Below, in pieces: positions 1-8,536 of a stretch of 33,107 nt of DNA; the stretch's first letter is position 1; each line of letters opens with the position of its first letter. The position numbers and the translations under genes are program-made. The DNA is from an uncultured Clostridia bacterium (GTDB taxonomy: Bacteria > Bacillota > Clostridia > Christensenellales > Aristaeellaceae). Below the pieces are notes generated by a model. It saw nothing but the letters and a program-made list of their open reading frames with translations, made no database searches and was not told where the DNA came from. The stretch spans positions 1 to 33,107 of the forward strand of contig CANRLC010000026.1 in the NCBI GenBank assembly GCA_947631405.1. The letters are read 5' to 3'.

Positions 1-13
1 CGGGTTTGCTCTT

Positions 14-42
14 ATTATACCTTTTCCTGTTTCTGATTTCTA
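14..42 (-). promoter_or_regulatory. Possible promoter reading out of the window to the left
   Basis: On the minus strand there is a perfect -10 box (TATAAT, 14-19) with a 17-base spacer to a weaker -35 match (TAGAAA, 37-42). It lies in a short AT-rich patch and would drive a gene beyond the left edge. The downstream gene is not visible, so this rests on the motif alone. Confidence 0.35.
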
Positions 43-371
43 CCCCTTCTTTGTCCAGTTTTAGTTTACCACTTCAAGCGGAGCGCCGTACCCTGCCGCC
101 AGTGGCGGCAGACGTCCCCCGAGCCGCAGGCGAGGGCGTAGCCCCCGTAACCCCAGCCCCGCGCCTACCCGTAAAGAAAAAGAACCCGAGCATAAGCGCA
201 TCAGGCTCTCCTTCTCTAAACAATGTTTCCACTATCCCCCGCCCGGTCTCGCAGACGCTTCGCATCCGCTCCCGGGCTGCTTTTCCTTTAGGGGTACGCT
301 GGGGCGTCGCCCCAGACCCCACTGGGGATTTCATCCCCAGACCCCATCCTTTTGTTCCGTGCGTTTTGCGC
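43..371. repeat. Gene-free hairpin region with a copy of the composite intergenic module (copy A)
   Basis: No convincing gene lies here; open frames are side effects of high GC. The stretch holds several near-perfect inverted repeats: 93-111 (CTGCCGCCA around one G), 299-315 (CTGGGGC, loop GTC), 322-340 (CTGGGGAT, loop TTC), and a degenerate outer stem GCCCGG/CCGGGC at 241-246 and 272-277. The pair at 299-340 matches modules found at 20185-20230, 23490-23532, 27168-27212 and 27776-27819. Read on the minus strand it begins about 30 bases after the stop of the guaA-like gene. It could act as a 3' end or terminator element, but no long U tract follows. Confidence 0.7.
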
Positions 372-1817
372 TCACGCGAAGCGCTCATTGCCCACCGCGG
401 TCGGCGTCTCGTCATAAAGCACGCGCTCGATCAGCGGCGCTTCCCGCAGAATGCGCCCAACCGTCCGCTCGATCACATCGTGCGGCAGCCTCGCCGGCAT
501 CAGCATGCCGCCGGACAGCGTCACCGCGCGCAGAATCATCATCTCGCTGCCCATCGCCAAATCTCCGCCCGCGAGAATCGGGAAGAACTTGTACAGCCTG
601 CGCTCCATGCCCGCCTCGGTCAGCTCCTCGCGGAAGATCGCCTCGGCGATGCGCAGCGCGTGCAGGCGCTCGCCCGTCACCTCGCCGGGGATGCGCGCCG
701 CGAGGCCCAGCATCGGGAACGGCTTCCTCCGCACGACGTCCTCGCCGAGCTGCAAGTGCTCCGCGAGCAGGCGCACCTCGTCCTTGAACAGGTCGCCCAG
801 CGGCTCGCAGACGCCCATGCCGCTCGCCTGCCACGCGGCCGCGTGGCTGCCGCCGTAGTGGAGCAGGTCGCTGTATGTGGTGCCCAGCGCGATCGTGTGC
901 GCGTCGCGCACCGACGCCGCCTGGCGCAAAACCTCCTCGCGCAACAGATCGACGACGACCTCCCGCTTCTCGTTCGGGCCGCGCTTGCCGCGCAACGCCT
1001 CGAGCACGTCGCCGGAGCGGTCGGCGCGCAGGAGCGGGATGTCCAGCCTCTGGCAGAGGGCCTGTACCTGCGCAGGCTCGTCCTGCCGCATGAGGCCGGT
1101 ATCGACGAACACGGCGAGCATCCTCTCGCCGAACGCGCGCCTTGCGAGCGCCGCCGTCACCACCGAATCGACGCCGCCGCTGAGCGAGACGACCGCGCCG
1201 CCGCCCTGCGCGGCAAGCTCGTCGAGACCGCGCTGGGCCTCGGCGAGGATGGCCTCGGCGCTCCACCACGGCTCGCAGCCGCAGATGTCGCGCGCGAAAT
1301 TCTTGAGCAGCGTGGAGCCGTCCGGGTCGTTGCGCTCCAGCTCGAACTGAACGCCGTAGAGCTTTCTCTGCGCGTCCTCGAAGGCGATGGTGCAGCCGGA
1401 GGCGCGCGCGGTCTCCTCCACGTCCGCCGGGAGCATCAGCGTGAGCGTCTCGCGCAGGTAGCGCTCGCCGCCGGTTACGTCGCGGAAGAGGGGGCTTTCG
1501 TCGTACTCGATGGCGGCCTTCTTTTCCTTGATCGCCGTTCCCGCGCACGCGCCGCCCAATGCGGCGATCATCATGTGCGAAGCATGACCGAGCGCCAGCA
1601 CGGGGATGCCCAGCGCCAGCACGCCGGCGTCGAGCACGCCCTGCGCGGCGAACGGCTCCCCGCTGAGGATGATCCCCTTGGGCGCCGTCTCGCGAATCTG
1701 CTCAGACGACGTCGCGCCGCTGACGATCCGGCAATAGATCTGCTCCGCGCGCAGGCGCTTGGCGGTCTCCAAGGCGAAGGCGTCCGAAAAGTTGAGAATC
1801 AGGATGTGATCTTTCAT
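372..1817 (-). CDS. GMP synthase-like protein with an inactive glutaminase domain
   Basis: This 481-residue protein has the layout of GuaA: class I glutamine amidotransferase (about 1-180), ATP-pyrophosphatase (about 185-365) and C-terminal dimerisation domain. The PP-loop SGGVDS (213-218) and the FVDTGL, LFKDEVR and GEVT segments are well kept. The glutaminase is not: the GICYG nucleophile motif reads ALGHA, with Gly77 where the catalytic Cys should be, and the GVQFHPE motif reads GVQFELE, with Glu159 for the catalytic His. PFPGPGLA reads PFPMLGLA, and the protein ends TPTAVGNERFA without the usual KPPATIEWE tail that contacts XMP phosphate in true GMP synthases. It should be unable to use glutamine, and may use free ammonia, a partner subunit or a different substrate. 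The ATG at 1817 is chosen because GGGAGGAA lies just upstream; the frame is open a further 17 codons. It follows rplQ past a terminator. Confidence 0.85.
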   Translation of the reverse strand: MKDHILILNFSDAFALETAKRLRAEQIYCRIVSGATSSEQIRETAPKGIILSGEPFAAQGVLDAGVLALGIPVLALGHASHMMIAALGGACAGTAIKEKKAAIEYDESPLFRDVTGGERYLRETLTLMLPADVEETARASGCTIAFEDAQRKLYGVQFELERNDPDGSTLLKNFARDICGCEPWWSAEAILAEAQRGLDELAAQGGGAVVSLSGGVDSVVTAALARRAFGERMLAVFVDTGLMRQDEPAQVQALCQRLDIPLLRADRSGDVLEALRGKRGPNEKREVVVDLLREEVLRQAASVRDAHTIALGTTYSDLLHYGGSHAAAWQASGMGVCEPLGDLFKDEVRLLAEHLQLGEDVVRRKPFPMLGLAARIPGEVTGERLHALRIAEAIFREELTEAGMERRLYKFFPILAGGDLAMGSEMMILRAVTLSGGMLMPARLPHDVIERTVGRILREAPLIERVLYDETPTAVGNERFA

Positions 1818-1850
1818 GCGCGTTCCTCCCGTGCGGTGTCCGATCGCCTT

Positions 1851-1889
1851 AAAAAAGCTGCCTCGCACAGCTTTCTTGCGAAACAGCTT
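1851..1889 (-). terminator. Intrinsic terminator at the end of the ribosomal-protein operon
   Basis: Eighteen bases after the rplQ stop, the minus strand forms a stem of about 13 pairs (AAGCTG plus UUUCGCA against UGCGAGG plus CAGCUU, two G-U pairs) followed directly by a run of six T. This is a classic rho-independent terminator. It separates the ribosomal operon from the guaA-like gene, which must rely on read-through or an unseen promoter. Confidence 0.85.
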
Positions 1890-1907
1890 CTTTGGTGGCT
1901 TTTGGGG

Positions 1908-2420
1908 TTACACCAGCTCCAGAATGACCATCTCGGCAGCGTCGCCGCGGCGCGGGCCTTTCTTGAGGATGCGGGTGTAGCCGCCCGCGCAGTTCTTTTC
2001 CGCGTTGCGGGCCTTGTACTTCGGGCCGATCTCGCGGAAGAGCTTCTCGACGCAGGGATGCTTCACGTCCTTGGTGCGCTCGCGGTAGGCGCTCTTGTTC
2101 TCGTCGTCCTTCTTCGGCTCCTGCATGTCGTACAGGTAGGCCATGATCTGGCGGCGGGCGGCGAGCTTGCTGGGCGCGTCGTTCTGGACGGTGACCGTGA
2201 CGGTCTGGCCCTTATCGTTGTTGAAGGTCTTTTCAACCTCGACGTTGTTGTCGCACTCGCGGATGGCGAGCGTGATCAGGCGCTCGGCCTCTTTGCGCAC
2301 TTCCTTGGCGCGCGCGAGAGTCGTTTCGATGCGTCCGTACCAGATGAGATTCGTCACCTGATTGCGCAGCAGCGCTTTGCGCTGGGCGGCCGTGCGGCCA
2401 AGCTTGCGTTGGGTGGCCAT
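1908..2420 (-). CDS. rplQ: Ribosomal protein bL17, long form
   Basis: bL17 is a 50S protein near the peptide exit tunnel. The N-terminus ([19 protein letters not shown]) and the C-terminal [19 protein letters not shown] are textbook bL17. The protein is 170 residues against roughly 115-130 for most bacteria. The extra length comes from two insertions, about residues 55-85 (an acidic, threonine/valine-rich segment) and 98-122 (a charged segment), both in the middle of the fold. The start is the ATG at 2420, preceded by AAAGGAGG; the open frame extends 12 codons further without a good site. It is the last gene of the operon after rpoA. Confidence 0.96.
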
Positions 2421-2563
2421 GGGATATTCCTCCTTTTGTCGGCCCGCCTCCTGCAAATACGGTTCCTCACGCGCCCGGCCGCTTCCGGCCCCGACGCGCC
2501 CATATTTCCCTTAGGCGCGGCCTTGATCGCCCCGACGGGCGGATGTGTTAAACCTGCTTGCGG

Positions 2564-3502
2564 TCACTCGTCGTTTGCGCGCAGAGCCAGCCCAAGGGCT
2601 GCGAGCTTCTGCTCCACCTCTTCCAGAGACTTCTTGCCGAGGTTGCGCACCTTCATCATGTCTTCCTGATTGCGCTGGATCAGCTCCGCGACGGTGTTGA
2701 TGCCCGCGCGCTTGAGGCAGTTGTAAGCGCGCACGGAGAGATCCAGCTCCTCGATGGTCATCTCCAGCACCTTTTCGCGGTGGTCGTCCTCCTTCTCGTT
2801 GAAGCCGATGGTCACGACCTGGTCGGTCAGATCCATGAACAGCTTCAGGTGCCCGCCGAGGATCTTCGCCGCCGTGCTGATGGCCTCGTCCGGCTGGACG
2901 CTGCCGTCCGTCCACACCTCGAGCGTCAGGCGGTCGTAGTCGGTCGCCTGACCCACGCGGGTGTTGTCCACGGTGTAGTTGACCTTGCGGATCGGGGTGA
3001 AGATGGAGTCCGTCGGGATGACGCCGATCGGCGTGCTGGCGGTCTTGTTGTGCTCCGCGCTCACATAGCCGCGGCCCTTCTCGATCGTCAGGTGCATGAT
3101 CATATCGGCGTCCTCGTTGAGGGTGGCGATGTGCAGATCGCGGTTGATGACCTGAATCTGGTCGTCCACCTCCAGCGCGGCGGCCGTCAGCTCGCACGGA
3201 CCCTTGACGTTGATGGAGATCGTCTTGGGGCCGTCGCAGAACAGCTTGGCGGAAAGCTCTTTGAGGTTGAGGATGATCTCTGCGACGTCTTCCTTCACGC
3301 CGGGAACGGCGGAAAACTCATGTTGGATGCCCTCAATGCGGATGCTGGAAACGGCGACGCCCGGCAGAGAGCTGAGCAGCACGCGGCGAAGCGAGTTTCC
3401 GAGCGTCTGCCCGAACCCGTGTTCAAGCGGCTCGACGACAAACTTGCCATAGCTGTCGCTTGCCTCCACACGTTCGATGCGGGGCTTTTCGATTTCGATC
3501 AT
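2564..3502 (-). CDS. rpoA: RNA polymerase alpha subunit
   Basis: A 312-residue alpha subunit. The N-terminal domain (about 1-230) carries the dimerisation and assembly region, with the conserved segment [19 protein letters not shown] near residue 30. The C-terminal domain (about 245-305) has the DNA- and activator-binding segment [17 protein letters not shown] and the helix-hairpin-helix [13 protein letters not shown]. It sits between rpsD and rplQ as in the standard alpha operon. A 143-base gap separates its stop from the rplQ start; I see only GC hairpins there. Confidence 0.98.
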
Positions 3503-3549
3503 TGGGCAGATTCCTCCTCACACTGGCCGTGGGATTACGCGAGCGACGA

Positions 3550-4146
3550 TTAACGGGAGTACAGCTCGATGATGAGATGCTCCGAGACCGGGAAGTCCAC
3601 GTCCTCGCGGGTGGGCAGAGCCGCCACGGTGCCGGTGAGGTTGGGCGCATCGAAGGTGAGCCACTTGGGCGTCGCCACGCCGGTGCCCTCGCGCAGCGGC
3701 TTAAAGGCCGCCTGCTCGCGGGAGCGCTCGCGCAGGGTGATGACGTCGCCGACCTTCACGGTGTAGGAAGGGATGTCCACCTTCTTGCCGTTGACGCGGA
3801 TGTGCCCGTGAACGACGATCTGGCGGGCCATGCGGCGCGTCTTCGCCAGACCCAGACGGAAGACCACGTTGTCAAGGCGCGTCTCCAGCAGGCGCAGCAG
3901 GTTGTCGCCCGTGACGCCCTTCATGGCCGAGGCCTTGAGGTAATAGCGGTGGAACTGCTTCTCCAGCACGCCGTAGACGAACTTGACCTTCTGCTTCTCC
4001 TTGAGCTGCATGCCGTACTCGGAGACCTTCTTGCGCCGCATGCCGCCGGGATTGCGGGTCGATTTCTTATTGCCATAGCCCATGACGGCCGGGGAGATGT
4101 CGAGGCTCCGGCACTTCTTGGCGATCGGCTCTTTATTGTTGGCCAT
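3550..4146 (-). CDS. rpsD: Ribosomal protein uS4
   Basis: uS4 starts 30S assembly by binding the 5' domain of 16S rRNA, and in enterobacteria it represses the alpha operon. The protein is 198 residues, with the S4 RNA-binding domain at about 90-155 (LETRLDNVVFRLGLAKTRR, QIVVHGHIRVNGKKVDIPSY). The N-terminus keeps only one cysteine (Cys13) of the zinc-binding set, so this is the cysteine-poor, zinc-free paralogue type. It lies 24 bases after rpsK. Confidence 0.97.
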   Translation of the reverse strand: MANNKEPIAKKCRSLDISPAVMGYGNKKSTRNPGGMRRKKVSEYGMQLKEKQKVKFVYGVLEKQFHRYYLKASAMKGVTGDNLLRLLETRLDNVVFRLGLAKTRRMARQIVVHGHIRVNGKKVDIPSYTVKVGDVITLRERSREQAAFKPLREGTGVATPKWLTFDAPNLTGTVAALPTREDVDFPVSEHLIIELYSR

Positions 4147-4170
4147 TGTTTACTGTCCTCCTTACAAACC

Positions 4171-4572
4171 TTACACGCGACGGCGCTTGGGCGGACGGCA
4201 TCCGTTGTGCGGGATGGGCGTCACGTCCTTGATCATATTGACCTCCAGACCTGCGGCCTGCAGGGAGCGGATCGCGGCCTCGCGCCCGGATCCCGGCCCG
4301 CGGACGTACACCTCGACGGTCTTGAGGCCGTACTCCATGGCGGCCTTCGCGGCGGTCTCGGCGGCGGTCTGCGCGGCGAACGGCGTGGACTTCTTGCTTC
4401 CGCGGAAGCCCAGCCCGCCGGCGCTCGCCCAGCTCAGGGCGTTGCCCTGCGTGTCGGTCAGCGTGACGATGGTGTTGTTGAAGGAGGATTTGATGTGCGC
4501 CGCGCCGCGCTCCACGACCTTGCGCTCGCGGCGCTTGCGGACGGTCTTCTTCAGCTTCTGCTTGGGTGCCAT
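4171..4572 (-). CDS. rpsK: Ribosomal protein uS11
   Basis: uS11 is a 30S platform protein that helps hold the mRNA near the E site. The 133-residue product has the family core [37 protein letters not shown] and the C-terminal [16 protein letters not shown] chose the ATG at 4572 because AGGAG lies nine bases upstream. An in-frame TTG two codons earlier is only three bases from that site. Confidence 0.97.
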
Positions 4573-4587
4573 AATCAATCACTCCTC

Positions 4588-4965
4588 TTACTTCGTGGCC
4601 TTCTTCTTGCCGGCGATGGTCTTCTTGGGGCCTTTCCGGGTGCGGGCGTTCTGCTTGGTGTTCTGTCCGCGCACGGGCAGACCCTTGCGGTGACGCACGC
4701 CGCGGTAGCAGCCGATCTCCATCAGACGCTTGATGTCCAGCGACACATCGCGGCGAAGATCGCCCTCCACCTTGAGGTTGTGCTCGATGTATTCACGGAT
4801 CTTGTTGACGTCCTGCTCGGTGAGATCCTTGACGCGGGTGTCGGGATTGACGCCGGTCGCCGCCAAGATCTGCCGAGAGGTCGTGACGCCGATACCGAAG
4901 ATGTACGTCAATCCGATTTCGACCCGCTTCTCGCGAGGCAGGTCAACGCCAGAAATTCGTGCCAT
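4588..4965 (-). CDS. rpsM: Ribosomal protein uS13
   Basis: uS13 sits in the head of the 30S subunit and contacts the P-site tRNA and the 50S subunit. The 125-residue sequence begins [21 protein letters not shown], has the helix-hairpin-helix [11 protein letters not shown] and the basic tail [18 protein letters not shown] ending in a lysine-rich stretch. It is the first gene of the alpha section. Its start is preceded by a 191-base gap, the longest inside this otherwise tight operon, listed separately as a possible leader. Confidence 0.97.
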
Positions 4966-5156
4966 TGTTTTACCTCCGAACTGAATCCAATGAAGTTTTC
5001 TCGTCGCGGAAACACCCGGCCTCGGCTCGCGCCGCGCCGGGGCAGCCCCGACCCTTTGTCGGTGTCCTCACCGAACGGTTGTCTATGAAAAGCCGCATGG
5101 AACACAGGCGTTGCCTGCGCAGCCGCCCATGCGGTCCTTCCTTCGGTCGCGTGAAA
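4966..5156 (-). promoter_or_regulatory. Possible structured leader of the alpha section, before rpsM
   Basis: This 191-base gap between rpmJ and rpsM contains strong inverted repeats. A compound hairpin has outer arms CCGCATGG/CCATGCGG (5093-5100 and 5127-5134) around an inner stem CAGGC/GCCTG (5105-5117). Closer to rpsM, stems CCGAC/GTCGG (5048-5062) and CGGGG/CCCCG (5038-5050) overlap at 5048-5050 and cannot both form, as in a switch. In E. coli uS4 represses the alpha operon by binding RNA at this same place, before rpsM. The position and the folds are seen; a regulatory role is inference. I see no convincing promoter inside. Confidence 0.45.
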
Positions 5157-5270
5157 TCAGCCCTGCCTCTGCTTGTGCTTCGGATTCTCGCAGATGACCA
5201 TGATCTTGCCCTTGCGCTTGATGATCTTGCACTTTTCGCAGATCGGCTTGACAGACGGTCTTACCTTCAT
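5157..5270 (-). CDS. rpmJ: Ribosomal protein bL36
   Basis: The 37-residue product begins [15 protein letters not shown] and ends NPKHKQRQG. It carries the zinc-binding set Cys11, Cys14, Cys27 and His32, so it is the zinc-containing form of this small 50S protein. The order infA-rpmJ-rpsM is the usual one. The start is well supported by GTAGGAGGAACGGACAA upstream. Confidence 0.97.
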
Positions 5271-5341
5271 TTGTCCGTTCCTCCTACAAAAACTTGTTGG
5301 GATGCCGCCGCCGCGCTGTTGCCGGCCGGCGGCGCGTCGGA

Positions 5342-5563
5342 TCAGCCCTTGCTGCGCCAGGTGATGCGTCCCCTGGTCAGGTCGTAGGGTGAGATCTCGA
5401 CTTTGACCTTGTCGCCGGGATAGATGCGGATGAAGTTCATCCGGATCTTTCCGGAGATCTGTGCCATGATCTTATGCCCGCCGGCCACCTCGACGCGGAA
5501 ATTCGCGTTGGGCAGCGCTTCAACGACGACGCCTTCAACCTCGATATTGTCGCTCTTGGGCAA
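5342..5563 (-). CDS. infA: Translation initiation factor IF-1, TTG start
   Basis: IF-1 binds the 30S A site during initiation. The 73-residue OB-fold protein contains [39 protein letters not shown] and LTRGRITWR. No ATG is available at the expected N-terminus. The start is a TTG at 5563 (reading LPKSDN, translated with Met), eight bases after AGGAGG, and that site lies inside the last codons of the upstream KOW gene, whose stop is only three bases away. The rare start and the close spacing suggest translation coupled to the upstream gene. Confidence 0.95.
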
Positions 5564-5566
5564 CCT

Positions 5567-5869
5567 TTAACCCTCCTTACGCGGCAACAAAGCCTCTTGA
5601 TAGCCGATTGCATCTAGTTTATTTCGCACTTCAGAATCGAAAATCCTTTTTTTCGCAAAAATTTTCTCGCGTATCTCCTCAAGGATCTCCGGCTTGGCGA
5701 CCAGATGCTTGATCTTTTTGCGTTTGGGATGGTCTACCTTCCTCTGGCAGCCGTTGGCGATGGCGACGTGATCCTCGTCGAGCACCTGCACGATCACGAA
5801 GTAATGCCCTCGGTCGCGCCCGGCGCGGGAAAAGACCACGCGGCCCACCTCCATGGGAAATCCGCTCAT
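5567..5869 (-). CDS. KOW-domain RNA-binding protein (L14e/L6e/L27e-like)
   Basis: This 100-residue protein has an N-terminal KOW-like beta segment (about 6-40: VGRVVFSRAGRDRGHYFVIV, then DEDHVAIANGCQRKVDHPKRKKIKHL) and a charged helical tail. Small KOW proteins in this exact place, between map and infA, are common in Bacillota and are thought to bind ribosomal or other RNA; the exact function is not known. Its ATG overlaps the map stop (ATGA), and GGGGGA precedes it. An internal Met at residue 6 is an alternative start. Confidence 0.85.
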   Translation of the reverse strand: MSGFPMEVGRVVFSRAGRDRGHYFVIVQVLDEDHVAIANGCQRKVDHPKRKKIKHLVAKPEILEEIREKIFAKKRIFDSEVRNKLDAIGYQEALLPRKEG

Positions 5870-6639
5870 CGCTCTTCCCCCTTGCGGTAACCCGGCAGCG
5901 TGAGCAGCTCGGGTTCGCCTTCGGTGATGAGCACGGTGTGCTCGTAGTGCGCGGCGAGCTTCCCGTCGGAGGTGACCACCGTCCATCCGTCGGACAGCGT
6001 GCGGACGTGATAGTCGCCCGCGGCGATCATCGGCTCGATGCAGATGGTCATGCCGCGGCGCAGCCGCACGCCGTGACCCGGGACGCCGTAATTGGGCACG
6101 CTCGGATCCTCGTGCATCTCGCGGCCGATGCCGTGCCCGCACAGGGCGCGCACGGCGCTGTAGCCGCGCGCCTCCACATAGCGCTGCACAGTGTGCCCGA
6201 TGTCGCTGACGCGGTTGCCCTCCTTCGCGACCTCGAGGGCCGCGAAGAAGCTCTCGCGCGTGACGTCGATCAGCCGCTGCGCCTCCTCGGAGACCTTGCC
6301 GACGGGCACGGTCAGCGCGCTGTCGGCCTGCCAGCCGTCCAGCAGCAGGCAGCCGTCCAGCGAGATGATCTGCCCCTCGCGCAGCACCGTGTGCGGCGAC
6401 GGGATGCCATGCACCACTTGGCTGTCCACGCTCGTGCAGAGCGAGGCGGGGAAGCCCTCGTAGCCGAGGCAGGACGGGATCGCGCCGTGCGCGGTCGTCA
6501 GCTTCTGGAAGAGGTGATCCAGCTCCTTGGTCGTCACGCCCGGTTGCACATGCGCGGCGACCTGCGTGAGCACGTCGTGCAGCATCGCGCCGGCATCGCG
6601 CATCTTGGCGATCTGCGCAGAGTTTTTGACGGTGATCAT
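5866..6639 (-). CDS. map: Methionine aminopeptidase, type I
   Basis: This enzyme removes the initiator Met from nascent proteins. The 257-residue sequence has all five metal ligands in order: two Asp 11 residues apart in SLDGCLLLDGWQADSA, His in CGHGIGREMHEDP, Glu in ICIEPM and Glu in HYEHT, plus the catalytic His in VVHGIPS. One variation is Ala for Gly just before the second Asp. Both ends overlap neighbours by four bases (adk stop, KOW gene start), so translation is probably coupled. Confidence 0.98.
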   Translation of the reverse strand: MITVKNSAQIAKMRDAGAMLHDVLTQVAAHVQPGVTTKELDHLFQKLTTAHGAIPSCLGYEGFPASLCTSVDSQVVHGIPSPHTVLREGQIISLDGCLLLDGWQADSALTVPVGKVSEEAQRLIDVTRESFFAALEVAKEGNRVSDIGHTVQRYVEARGYSAVRALCGHGIGREMHEDPSVPNYGVPGHGVRLRRGMTICIEPMIAAGDYHVRTLSDGWTVVTSDGKLAAHYEHTVLITEGEPELLTLPGYRKGEER

Positions 6640-7262
6640 TCCGCCTCACCCAGCGCTTTCAGGATGGCCGCGAAGCAGTCGTCCATCGGGGCCGCGCCGT
6701 CCACCGTGCGCAAGAGGCCCTTCTCGCTGTAGAAATCGATCAGCGGCGCGGTCTGCGCGTGGTAAACCGCCAGACGGCTGAGCACCGTCTCCGCCTTGTC
6801 GTCGTCGCGCTGGATGAGCTTCGCGCCGCACTTTTCGCACGCGTCCCCGCTCAGGCGGCTGACGTGGTACGTCGCGCCGCAGGCCGGGCACACGCGGCGG
6901 CCGGACAGGCGCTGCGTGAGCGCCTCGTCGCTGACCTCGATGTCGATCACCGCGTCAATCGTCGCGAACTCTGCGAGGGCCTGCGCCTGCGGCACCGTGC
7001 GCGGGAAGCCGTCCAGGATGTAGCCCTTTTGGCAGTCCGGCTGCGCGAGCCGCTCGCGGACGATGTCGATCACGACCGAGTCCGGCACGAGATCGCCCCG
7101 GTCGATGTAGGCCTTGGCGGCCAGCCCGGTCGGGGTCTGTTCCTTGATGGCGCGGCGAAGGATGTCGCCCGTCGAGATCTGCGGGATGCCCAGCCGTTCG
7201 CACACGCGAACGGCTTGGGTTCCCTTGCCCGCGCCGGGCGGGCCGAGAAAAATCACATTCAT
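6636..7262 (-). CDS. adk: Adenylate kinase with zinc-binding lid
   Basis: Adenylate kinase interconverts ATP plus AMP and two ADP. The 208-residue protein has the P-loop GPPGAGKGT (7-15), the AMP-binding segment STGDILRRAI, the DGFPRT motif (84-89) and a long lid. The lid carries four cysteines (125, 128, 142, 145) in the zinc-finger pattern typical of Gram-positive bacteria. It lies 26 bases after secY, the usual arrangement. Confidence 0.98.
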   Translation of the reverse strand: MNVIFLGPPGAGKGTQAVRVCERLGIPQISTGDILRRAIKEQTPTGLAAKAYIDRGDLVPDSVVIDIVRERLAQPDCQKGYILDGFPRTVPQAQALAEFATIDAVIDIEVSDEALTQRLSGRRVCPACGATYHVSRLSGDACEKCGAKLIQRDDDKAETVLSRLAVYHAQTAPLIDFYSEKGLLRTVDGAAPMDDCFAAILKALGEAE

Positions 7263-7288
7263 GCTAGCACCTCACGCTTCGGGAGCGA

Positions 7289-8536
7289 TCAACCGAGGAA
7301 GCCTTTGTGGTGACGCATGACCATCTGCGCCTCGACCTGACGGATCGTCTCGATCGCGACGGACACCGCGATCAGCACCGAGCTGGCGCCGAACGGCGCG
7401 CTGATGCCGAACAGCCGGGTCAGCAGGGTCGGGATGGTCGCCAGCACCGCGAGGAACAGGGCGCTGAACAGGGTCAGGCGGTTCGACACCCGGGCGAGGA
7501 AATCGCTCGTCGCGCGGCCCTGCCGCACGCCGGGGATGATGCCGCCGTTCTGCTGCATGTTCTTGCTGATCTCCACGGGGTTGAACGTGATGCTCGTGTA
7601 GAAGTAGGTGAACGCGATGATGAGCACCGCCAGCACCAACTGATACCACACGCCGCTCTGGAACCTCTGCCACCAGAGGTTGATGCCGGAGGACGGGAAG
7701 AACGCGAAGATCGTCGCGGGGAACTGCAGGATGGCGAAGCCAAAGATCAGCGGCAGCACGCCGGTGGCGTTCAGCTTCATCGGGATGTGGGTGGATTGCC
7801 CGCCGTACATCTTGCGGCCCACCACGCGCTTGGCGTACTGCACCGGGATGCGGCGCTCGCCCATGTCCACATAGGTGATCGCGACGATCATCACCAGCAG
7901 CGCGGCGACGATCACGAGCACCGCCACAACGCTCACCGTTCCGGCGACCATGCCGCCGATGGCCTGCGTCGCCCAGGTGAACATGTTGGACACGATGCCC
8001 GCCATGATCAGCAGCGAGATGCCGTTGCCCAGCCCGTTCTCGGTGATGCGCTCGCCGATCCACATCGCCAGCGAGGTGCCGGCGGCCATGGACAGGCCGA
8101 TGACGACGTACCACAGCCAGCCGCCGCGGGCGTTCGCGCGCATCGCGAACACGAGGCCGACCGCCTGCACGAACGCGAGCACGACCGTGAGATAGCGGGT
8201 GTACTCGGTGATCTTCTTGCGGCCCTCCGGCCCTTCCTTGCTCAGCTTCTCCAGCGCCGGGATGGCGACCGTGAGCAGCTGCAGGATGATGCTGGAGTTG
8301 ATGTACGGGGTGATGCCCATCGCCATGATGGACATGTTCTGGAACGAACCGCCCGTCATCATGTTCATGAAGTCGAGGATGGAGTAGGTCGATACCGCGT
8401 CGCTCACCTGCTGAAGGTCAACGCCGGGAACCGGGATGACGCACAGCAGACGATAGACCAGCAGCATCAGCACCGTGTAGATGATCTTCTTGCGCAGCTC
8501 GGGGATGCGCCATGCGTTCTTCATCTTCTCCAGCAT
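7289..8536 (-). CDS. secY: Protein translocase subunit SecY
   Basis: SecY forms the membrane channel for protein export together with SecE and SecG. The 415-residue sequence has ten hydrophobic segments. It includes the plug-region pattern FMNMMTGGSFQNMSIMAMGITPYINSSI, the cytoplasmic loop ITYVDMGERRIPVQYAKR and the loop RQGRATSDFLARVSNRLTL. It starts one base after the rplO stop. Confidence 0.98.
   Translation of the reverse strand: MLEKMKNAWRIPELRKKIIYTVLMLLVYRLLCVIPVPGVDLQQVSDAVSTYSILDFMNMMTGGSFQNMSIMAMGITPYINSSIILQLLTVAIPALEKLSKEGPEGRKKITEYTRYLTVVLAFVQAVGLVFAMRANARGGWLWYVVIGLSMAAGTSLAMWIGERITENGLGNGISLLIMAGIVSNMFTWATQAIGGMVAGTVSVVAVLVIVAALLVMIVAITYVDMGERRIPVQYAKRVVGRKMYGGQSTHIPMKLNATGVLPLIFGFAILQFPATIFAFFPSSGINLWWQRFQSGVWYQLVLAVLIIAFTYFYTSITFNPVEISKNMQQNGGIIPGVRQGRATSDFLARVSNRLTLFSALFLAVLATIPTLLTRLFGISAPFGASSVLIAVSVAIETIRQVEAQMVMRHHKGFLG

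Follow-up and report, generated by a model that had tools for sequence, protein, structure and literature searches.

Candidate pseudo-GMP synthetases across one family of gut Clostridia: GuaA paralogues with altered glutaminase and XMP-binding sites

Introduction

A gene near the start of a 33,107-nucleotide stretch of DNA from an uncultured bacterium of the Aristaeellaceae (Clostridia; contig CANRLC010000026.1 of assembly GCA_947631405.1; the whole stretch is hereafter the window) encodes a paralogue of GMP synthetase, GuaA, which, as judged from its aligned residues, lacks the Cys and His of glutaminase chemistry and has lost the lid and XMP sites while the ATP P-loop is present. GMP synthetase counts as a textbook example of a housekeeping enzyme. 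Our leading, though tentative, reading is that this paralogue has turned into a pseudo-GMP synthetase with a rebuilt pocket, which would act as a regulator or partner protein. More tentative still is a fuller scenario for the whole group. It would be a pseudoenzyme family that spans one family of gut Clostridia; its glutaminase pocket may first have been remade as a new site for ligand sensing or catalysis, with erosion of the synthetase to follow, giving a regulator of nucleotide metabolism that would work with a GNAT acetyltransferase.

One bacterial family carries up to three forms of GMP synthetase: complete, glutaminase-less and, apparently, dead. The likely steps from enzyme to pseudoenzyme can be read across living members, a transitional one included, and the change is directly testable. 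The genes are also a warning, as they should not be annotated GMP synthase; another job is probable, perhaps in regulating or assisting nucleotide enzymes, and related gut bacteria keep the gene. Among the matches listed, the open-licence PubMed Central literature held no description of a GMP synthetase look-alike family of this kind.

Residue changes in the paralogue

A preliminary description of the window, made from its letters alone, had reported an open reading frame at 372-1817. The frame is real and lies on the minus strand, which that description left out, and a GGAGG read in the DNA ahead of it resembles a ribosome binding site. The encoded protein is homologous to GuaA over its length (NCBIfam NF000848, E 3.4e-81; PDB 7sbc, E 7e-57), sharing with GuaA (NF000848; PDB 1gpm, 2ywb and 3uow) the three-domain homology, the P-loop and the dimerization-domain Arg and Asp. 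It does not exceed any of the curated GMP synthase family cut-offs tested, scoring 273.4 bits against 400 for NF000848, 184.7 against 338.75 for TIGR00884 and 79.6 against 172.15 for TIGR00888. The Pfam family PF02540 is matched above its cut-off (40.6 bits, cut-off 21); the scores for the class I glutaminase family PF00117 (21.9 bits against 22.8) and for PF00958 (20.1 bits against 27) fall below theirs. The gene carries the following features:

375..1817, minus strand: coding sequence of the GuaA-like candidate pseudo-GMP synthetase, 481 aa, with its stop codon at 372-374
1587..1589, minus strand: codon GGT of Gly77, which replaces the glutaminase nucleophile Cys (elbow alignment)
1461..1463, minus strand: Arg119, newly fixed in the clade (71/73 clade members against 7/90 canonical sequences)
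1341..1343, minus strand: codon GAG of Glu159, which replaces the catalytic His (His retained in 1/73)
1326..1337, minus strand: E161-R-N163-D164, with the triad Glu retained and N163 (66/73) and D164 (72/73) newly fixed
1164..1181, minus strand: P-loop SGGVDS, residues 213-218, intact by alignment
807..869, minus strand: lid-loop site, residues 317-337, where the canonical IK[ST]HHNVGG stretch is deleted
375..407, minus strand: C-terminal tail, residues 471-481, the canonical counterpart of which is the XMP-phosphate-binding KPPATIEWE

Gly77, Glu159 and Glu161 stand where GuaA has its Cys-His-Glu triad. The preliminary description had noticed the first two of these substitutions, which the elbow alignment confirmed, and was also right that the XMP-binding tail is replaced, TPTAVGNERFA standing here for KPPATIEWE. 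The lid deletion and the loss of the other XMP contacts were absent from it. The lid motif IK[ST]HHN is missing from the protein, and with it the lid His, an adenine contact. To follow the XMP site we made our own mapping from the contacts of T. thermophilus GuaA given in PMC11448925, taking the roles of the XMP-phosphate residues (tail Lys, loop Arg) from that paper and from PMC10526850. The contacts are mostly altered, with Pro-Gly-Pro becoming P368-M-L, the ribose Gln K410 and the phosphate Lys T473; the Arg that contacts the XMP base is retained as R285. On the ATP side S213, D217, S218, K345, R364 and G312 are all retained. The earlier impression that the PP-loop and pyrophosphatase domain look active therefore holds for the ATP side and fails for the lid motif and the XMP contacts, and because the lid motif and the XMP-phosphate contacts are gone ammonia-fed GMP synthesis by this protein appears unlikely. 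In sum, the protein and its clade differ from GuaA in lacking the Cys, the His and the lid motif, in the replaced XMP contacts and tail, and in scores under the family cut-offs.

A monophyletic clade

Relatives were sampled from whole genomes in sets of 60 genomes, 200 of the family and 396 of the order. We examined 75 clade sequences, 26 from the 60-genome set, 47 from the family set, and G346 and G391; the latter two belong, together with G057 (which is within the 73), to another family of the order. The 47 came from rows with high scores, with one or a few chosen per genus, and describe the character of the clade rather than its frequency. A hand count, which a recount confirmed, gave at least 134 of the 200 family genomes with a 1.25-1.49 kb match of better E-value than any canonical-length (~1.5 kb) match, a figure that misses lower-scoring true members such as G029 and that includes many not examined individually.

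In a 163-row alignment, from which the partial G019c, the truncated G040 and L151 (frame in two pieces) were left out, the 73 clade members were monophyletic with a FastTree support of 1.0. An IQ-TREE analysis of 67 of the 163 sequences, 37 of them from the clade, gave a UFBoot of 100; the family tree that had been proposed as a check of the gene thus yields a clade with the same two substitutions.

The changes in the window's protein are the rule within this clade. The nucleophile Cys has been replaced in 75/75 members (among 73, by Gly in 72 and by Ser in one) and is present in 90/90 canonical sequences, and the catalytic His is missing from 74/75, G060 being the one that retains it; the triad Glu161 is kept in 72/73. 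The lid Lys is retained in 1/75, the loop Arg (R450 in the numbering of canonical G041c) in 5/75 and the tail Lys (K503) in 9/75, counts that tell against the ammonia-fed or partner-fed GMP synthase of the preliminary description. Canonical GuaA proteins keep Cys, His, lid Lys, loop Arg and tail Lys in 90 or 91 of 91. In the dimerization domain Arg495 is found in 66/75 and Asp499 in 74/75 clade members, residues that are known to pair in GuaA.

The loss of several catalytic residues, and of the P-loop in some members, would suit a decaying pseudogene, an explanation which the remaining evidence largely refutes and which we give almost no weight. Clade members of many genera have long open frames and newly fixed residues, and dN/dS was 0.11-0.45 in 10 close clade pairs compared with 0.04-0.11 in four pairs of canonical GuaA, rough values from a counting method with pS up to 0.61. 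They indicate purifying selection on the clade that is weaker than on canonical GuaA. Since the same changes recur in 75 clade sequences the substitutions are not due to chance or decay, as the preliminary description had anticipated.

Beyond the order, 47/391 genomes of the class and 29/299 of the phylum passed the threshold, with the source genome counted in both sets and G086 of the family in the class set; the other rows were 1,485-1,509 nt long. No clade member from outside the order was found among 17 of 18 such loci (L283 was left out), all of which had canonical motifs, the threshold being one below which weak-scoring relatives would fall.

The P-loop (S/T-G-G-x-D-S/T) is intact in 63/73 clade members, as expected for a working ATP pyrophosphatase, and this counts against a regulatory role. 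The ATP-phosphate Lys is retained in 63/73, the ATP-phosphate Arg in 55/73 and the XMP-base Arg in 39/73, and the Lys that precedes the XMP-base Arg in 73/73. Together with a GNAT gene that often lies close downstream (see below), these residues argue for the main rival explanation, a PP-loop ATP pyrophosphatase acting on a new acceptor, which would adenylate a substrate other than XMP and aminate it with free ammonia or otherwise modify it, perhaps in two steps with the GNAT protein. The idea of a new substrate had already been raised in the preliminary description and keeps part of its case. Against it, the P-loop is broken in 10/73 members from seven genera (G006, G012, G029, G032, G034, G081, G105, G145, G214 and G218), and dN/dS was 0.14-0.35 in four pairs with both P-loops broken. 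No ATPPase residue is newly fixed by the thresholds given below, where a new site would be expected to leave such residues, and close relatives conserve the ATPPase less than either of the other domains, although this is not so over all 73. On balance we consider a new acceptor rather unlikely.

New constraint in the former glutaminase domain

We counted a position as newly fixed if its residue occurred in at least 85% of the clade and in at most 35% of canonical sequences. Ten positions were found, D3, L22, A75, G77, R119, L129, F146, N163, D164 and P165. The weakest of these, D3 and P165, also occur in 26/90 and 30/90 canonical sequences. Every one of the ten falls within the glutaminase domain (residues 3-165); the ATPPase and dimerization domains have none. 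A one-residue deletion relative to canonical V172 lies beside E161-N163-D164 in 73/73 clade members. When six members were compared residue by residue, G104 included, A75, G77, R119, E161 and D164 were present in all, and N163 in five, G057 having His.

Near-invariant charged and polar residues that, in sequence, lie within the old active-site motifs or close to them, and a clade-wide deletion beside them, could mean that the old glutaminase pocket is a new catalytic site with Cys-free chemistry through E161, N163, D164 and R119, the rest of the protein being a scaffold. The fixed residues fit ligand binding or an interface equally well, and we regard a catalytic pocket as improbable. A simple glutamine sensor was ruled out as the simplest reading: Gln93 of a class I glutaminase domain holds the substrate glutamine, according to PMC4673825, and this substrate-holding Gln, four residues after the Cys, is found in 0/73 clade members. 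As the Cys is likewise found in 0/73, the domain lacks both of the residues by which a class I glutaminase would be recognised.

Domain conservation was compared in ten genomes that hold both proteins (45 pairs). In the clade the glutaminase domain (0.643) is more conserved than the ATPPase (0.581) and in canonical GuaA it is less conserved (0.799 compared with 0.864), while the dimerization domain is the best conserved in both (0.681 in the clade, 0.910 in canonical GuaA). Over all 73 members the values are 0.366 for the glutaminase and 0.377 for the ATPPase (0.528 and 0.611, respectively, in 65 diverse canonical sequences), so the contrast is limited to close relatives. The clade's dimerization domain is also relaxed relative to the canonical one. 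Both the lack of the contrast over all 73 and this relaxation count against the regulator reading.

One transitional member, G104 (L202, 427-1944, minus strand), is without the Cys and His and has R119, N163 and D164. It retains the lid, KAHHNVGGLP, and the tail, KPPATIEWE. A protein that has the new glutaminase residues together with an intact lid and tail suggests that rebuilding of the glutaminase pocket probably preceded the loss of the XMP machinery and its chemistry. The likely order of events in the clade would be rebuilding of the glutaminase, loss of the lid and XMP site, and then loss of the P-loop in places.

Other GMP synthetases in the same genomes

Among the 24 genomes of the 60-genome set that carry this protein, 23 also have a canonical GuaA, a second paralogue that we call type S, or both, although the additional GuaA of G019 is fragmentary and lies where a contig ends. 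Two genomes assigned to the clade later agree, with a canonical GuaA in G057 and an ATPPase-only match in G029, the type S sequence of which (G029s) was left out of the sequences examined. The earlier description of the gene as a paralogue is therefore upheld, since relatives carry real GMP synthases beside it.

Type S is a GuaA paralogue without a complete glutaminase domain, found in the same bacterial family (L255-L269; G010, G003, G033, G077, G031 and others). It has a glutaminase remnant or none, a length of 325-435 aa in 18/20 sequences examined, and retains the ATPPase, the lid and the XMP tail, with the tested synthetase positions present in 20/20. From these residues type S is likely to be an ammonia-dependent GMP synthase in bacteria. 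In the ATPPase tree it groups with the clade with a FastTree support of 0.864, one canonical-type sequence, G033c, being included in the group. G077, the assembly of which consists of 3 contigs, has canonical GuaA, type S and the present paralogue together. We ruled out an obligate partnership of this paralogue with the glutaminase-less synthase, as a dead glutaminase is no source of ammonia and type S was not found in 8/24 genomes with the paralogue in the 60-genome set, the source genome included.

The preliminary description had suggested a search for a normal guaA in the rest of this genome. None was found on the contigs searched of the draft assembly, which is 94% complete and in 68 contigs. 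An IMP dehydrogenase gene is present, and the product of IMP dehydrogenase is XMP. These two observations would favour an ammonia-fed or partner-fed GMP synthase that is the sole one of this organism, and G104, with its lid and tail, may work in this way. Here, however, the lid motif and XMP-phosphate contacts are absent, nearly all genomes with this protein hold another GuaA as counted above, and an assembly gap is plausible; we consider a sole GMP synthase very improbable.

The argument for a gap comes from the neighbours of canonical guaA. A gene that we take from its sequence to be mnmE adjoins canonical guaA in G008 and G018 of this genus and is separated from it by one ORF in G077 (3/11 loci examined); it was not seen in the stretches examined for G027, also of this genus, and seven other genomes of the family. 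This assembly gives no full-length mnmE match, the best matches covering 98 residues at 43% and 201 residues at 31%. That mnmE is also missing makes a gap hiding guaA plausible, an argument of moderate weight given that the adjacency is not general. In five other genomes (G001, G013, G025, G027 and G028) canonical guaA lies ~0.1-0.4 kb from a contig start, which suggests that a repeat, or a stretch that is difficult to assemble, adjoins it.

In four near-closed genomes of genus g51 a full-length match to the paralogue was not found at E 1e-10. These genomes have canonical-length and ATPPase-only matches, two of them also short glutaminase-only matches. As they lack the paralogue and have the GNAT gene, the paralogue is dispensable there, which is a further point against the regulator reading, and the GNAT gene is independent of it.

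Proposed role and comparison with known systems

The regulator or partner reading draws on the monophyly of the clade, the residue losses, the ten new glutaminase positions, the better conservation of the glutaminase than of the ATPPase among close relatives, the dimer Arg and Asp, the dN/dS values and the neighbouring genes. The rebuilt glutaminase pocket would bind a ligand or a partner, and the protein may still dimerize and serve nucleotide metabolism as a subunit with a regulatory or scaffolding role. Possible partners would be canonical GuaA, in a prozyme-like manner, the glutaminase-less GMP synthase, or the neighbouring GNAT acetyltransferase of relatives, and in members with an intact P-loop ATP could be a bound signal.

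Three systems offer comparisons. Carbamoyl-phosphate synthetase I is an ammonia-using enzyme with a glutaminase domain that lacks the Cys. It resembles the present clade in keeping a class I glutaminase domain after loss of the nucleophile, and differs in that its synthetase stays active, whereas in the clade the acceptor site appears to be lost too. Ammonia use by carbamoyl-phosphate synthetases is the subject of PMC7657897. Type S, for which the archaeal two-subunit GMP synthetase serves as a comparison, shares its ancestry with the clade and shows the opposite pattern, the synthetase positions being kept and a complete glutaminase missing. Prozymes are dead paralogues that activate a live partner, as described for trypanosomatid AdoMet decarboxylase and deoxyhypusine synthase in PMC5201418 and PMC3663545. 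The likeness lies in a catalytically dead paralogue beside a live homologue, seen here as co-presence with live GuaA types; prozymes belong to another protein family, and the analogy is one of working only.

Genomic neighbourhood

The paralogue's gene sits at what we recognise by sequence as the rpoA-rplQ end of the ribosomal operon, with this upstream neighbour:

1908..2456, minus strand: rplQ (ribosomal protein L17), presumably, as recognised by sequence; 90 nt gap to the paralogue

The rplQ gene is directly upstream in 20/20 loci of this genus, and other genera have different neighbours. A general link to translation through rplQ, hinted at in the preliminary description, was ruled out because the neighbour is genus-specific. 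Elsewhere a MazG-like gene is found upstream in 16/72 loci, adjacent in 15 (PF12643 on both of two tested), and a CHAP/peptidoglycan-binding gene in 13/72 (Pfam checked on two).

A GNAT acetyltransferase gene of ~268 aa is near the paralogue in 35/72 loci, and in 29/72 it follows the paralogue on the same strand within 300 nt; by hand count the linkage is seen in 16 genera. It was not found nearby in 37/72 loci, some of them on short contigs, which counts against the regulator reading. One match to the GNAT gene is present in each of 193/200 family genomes, g51 included, so GNAT has its own role. In G081 the member (L237, 7998-9443, minus strand) has no P-loop, LDGTPES standing in its place, and the GNAT gene is still 45 nt downstream.

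In G008, G028 and G019 purE-purF-purM-purN lie between the paralogue and the GNAT gene (Pfam on the G008 proteins), and in G018 purE-purF follow the paralogue up to the contig end; all four genomes are of this genus. The GNAT gene of the source genome is at G000:C64:508-1317 (L270), its Pfam GNAT match covering the C-terminal half. Contig C64 starts with this gene, followed by an ORF that resembles the post-GNAT ORF of G008 and that we take to be purH, and then by dapA- and dapB-like genes. To see whether the window end joins C64, the window's first 2000 bases were compared with C64 by BLAST; the matches were only weak and short, the best with an E of 0.049, so that a junction of the two in this genome would be conjectural. 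Rfam gave no match at the gathering threshold in window positions 1-8000. One further site was noted near the end of the contig:

14..42, minus strand: promoter-like site TAGAAA-17-TATAAT, 10/12, a consensus match only, pointing off the contig end

This site is just downstream of the gene, the position taken in several relatives by purE or the GNAT gene.
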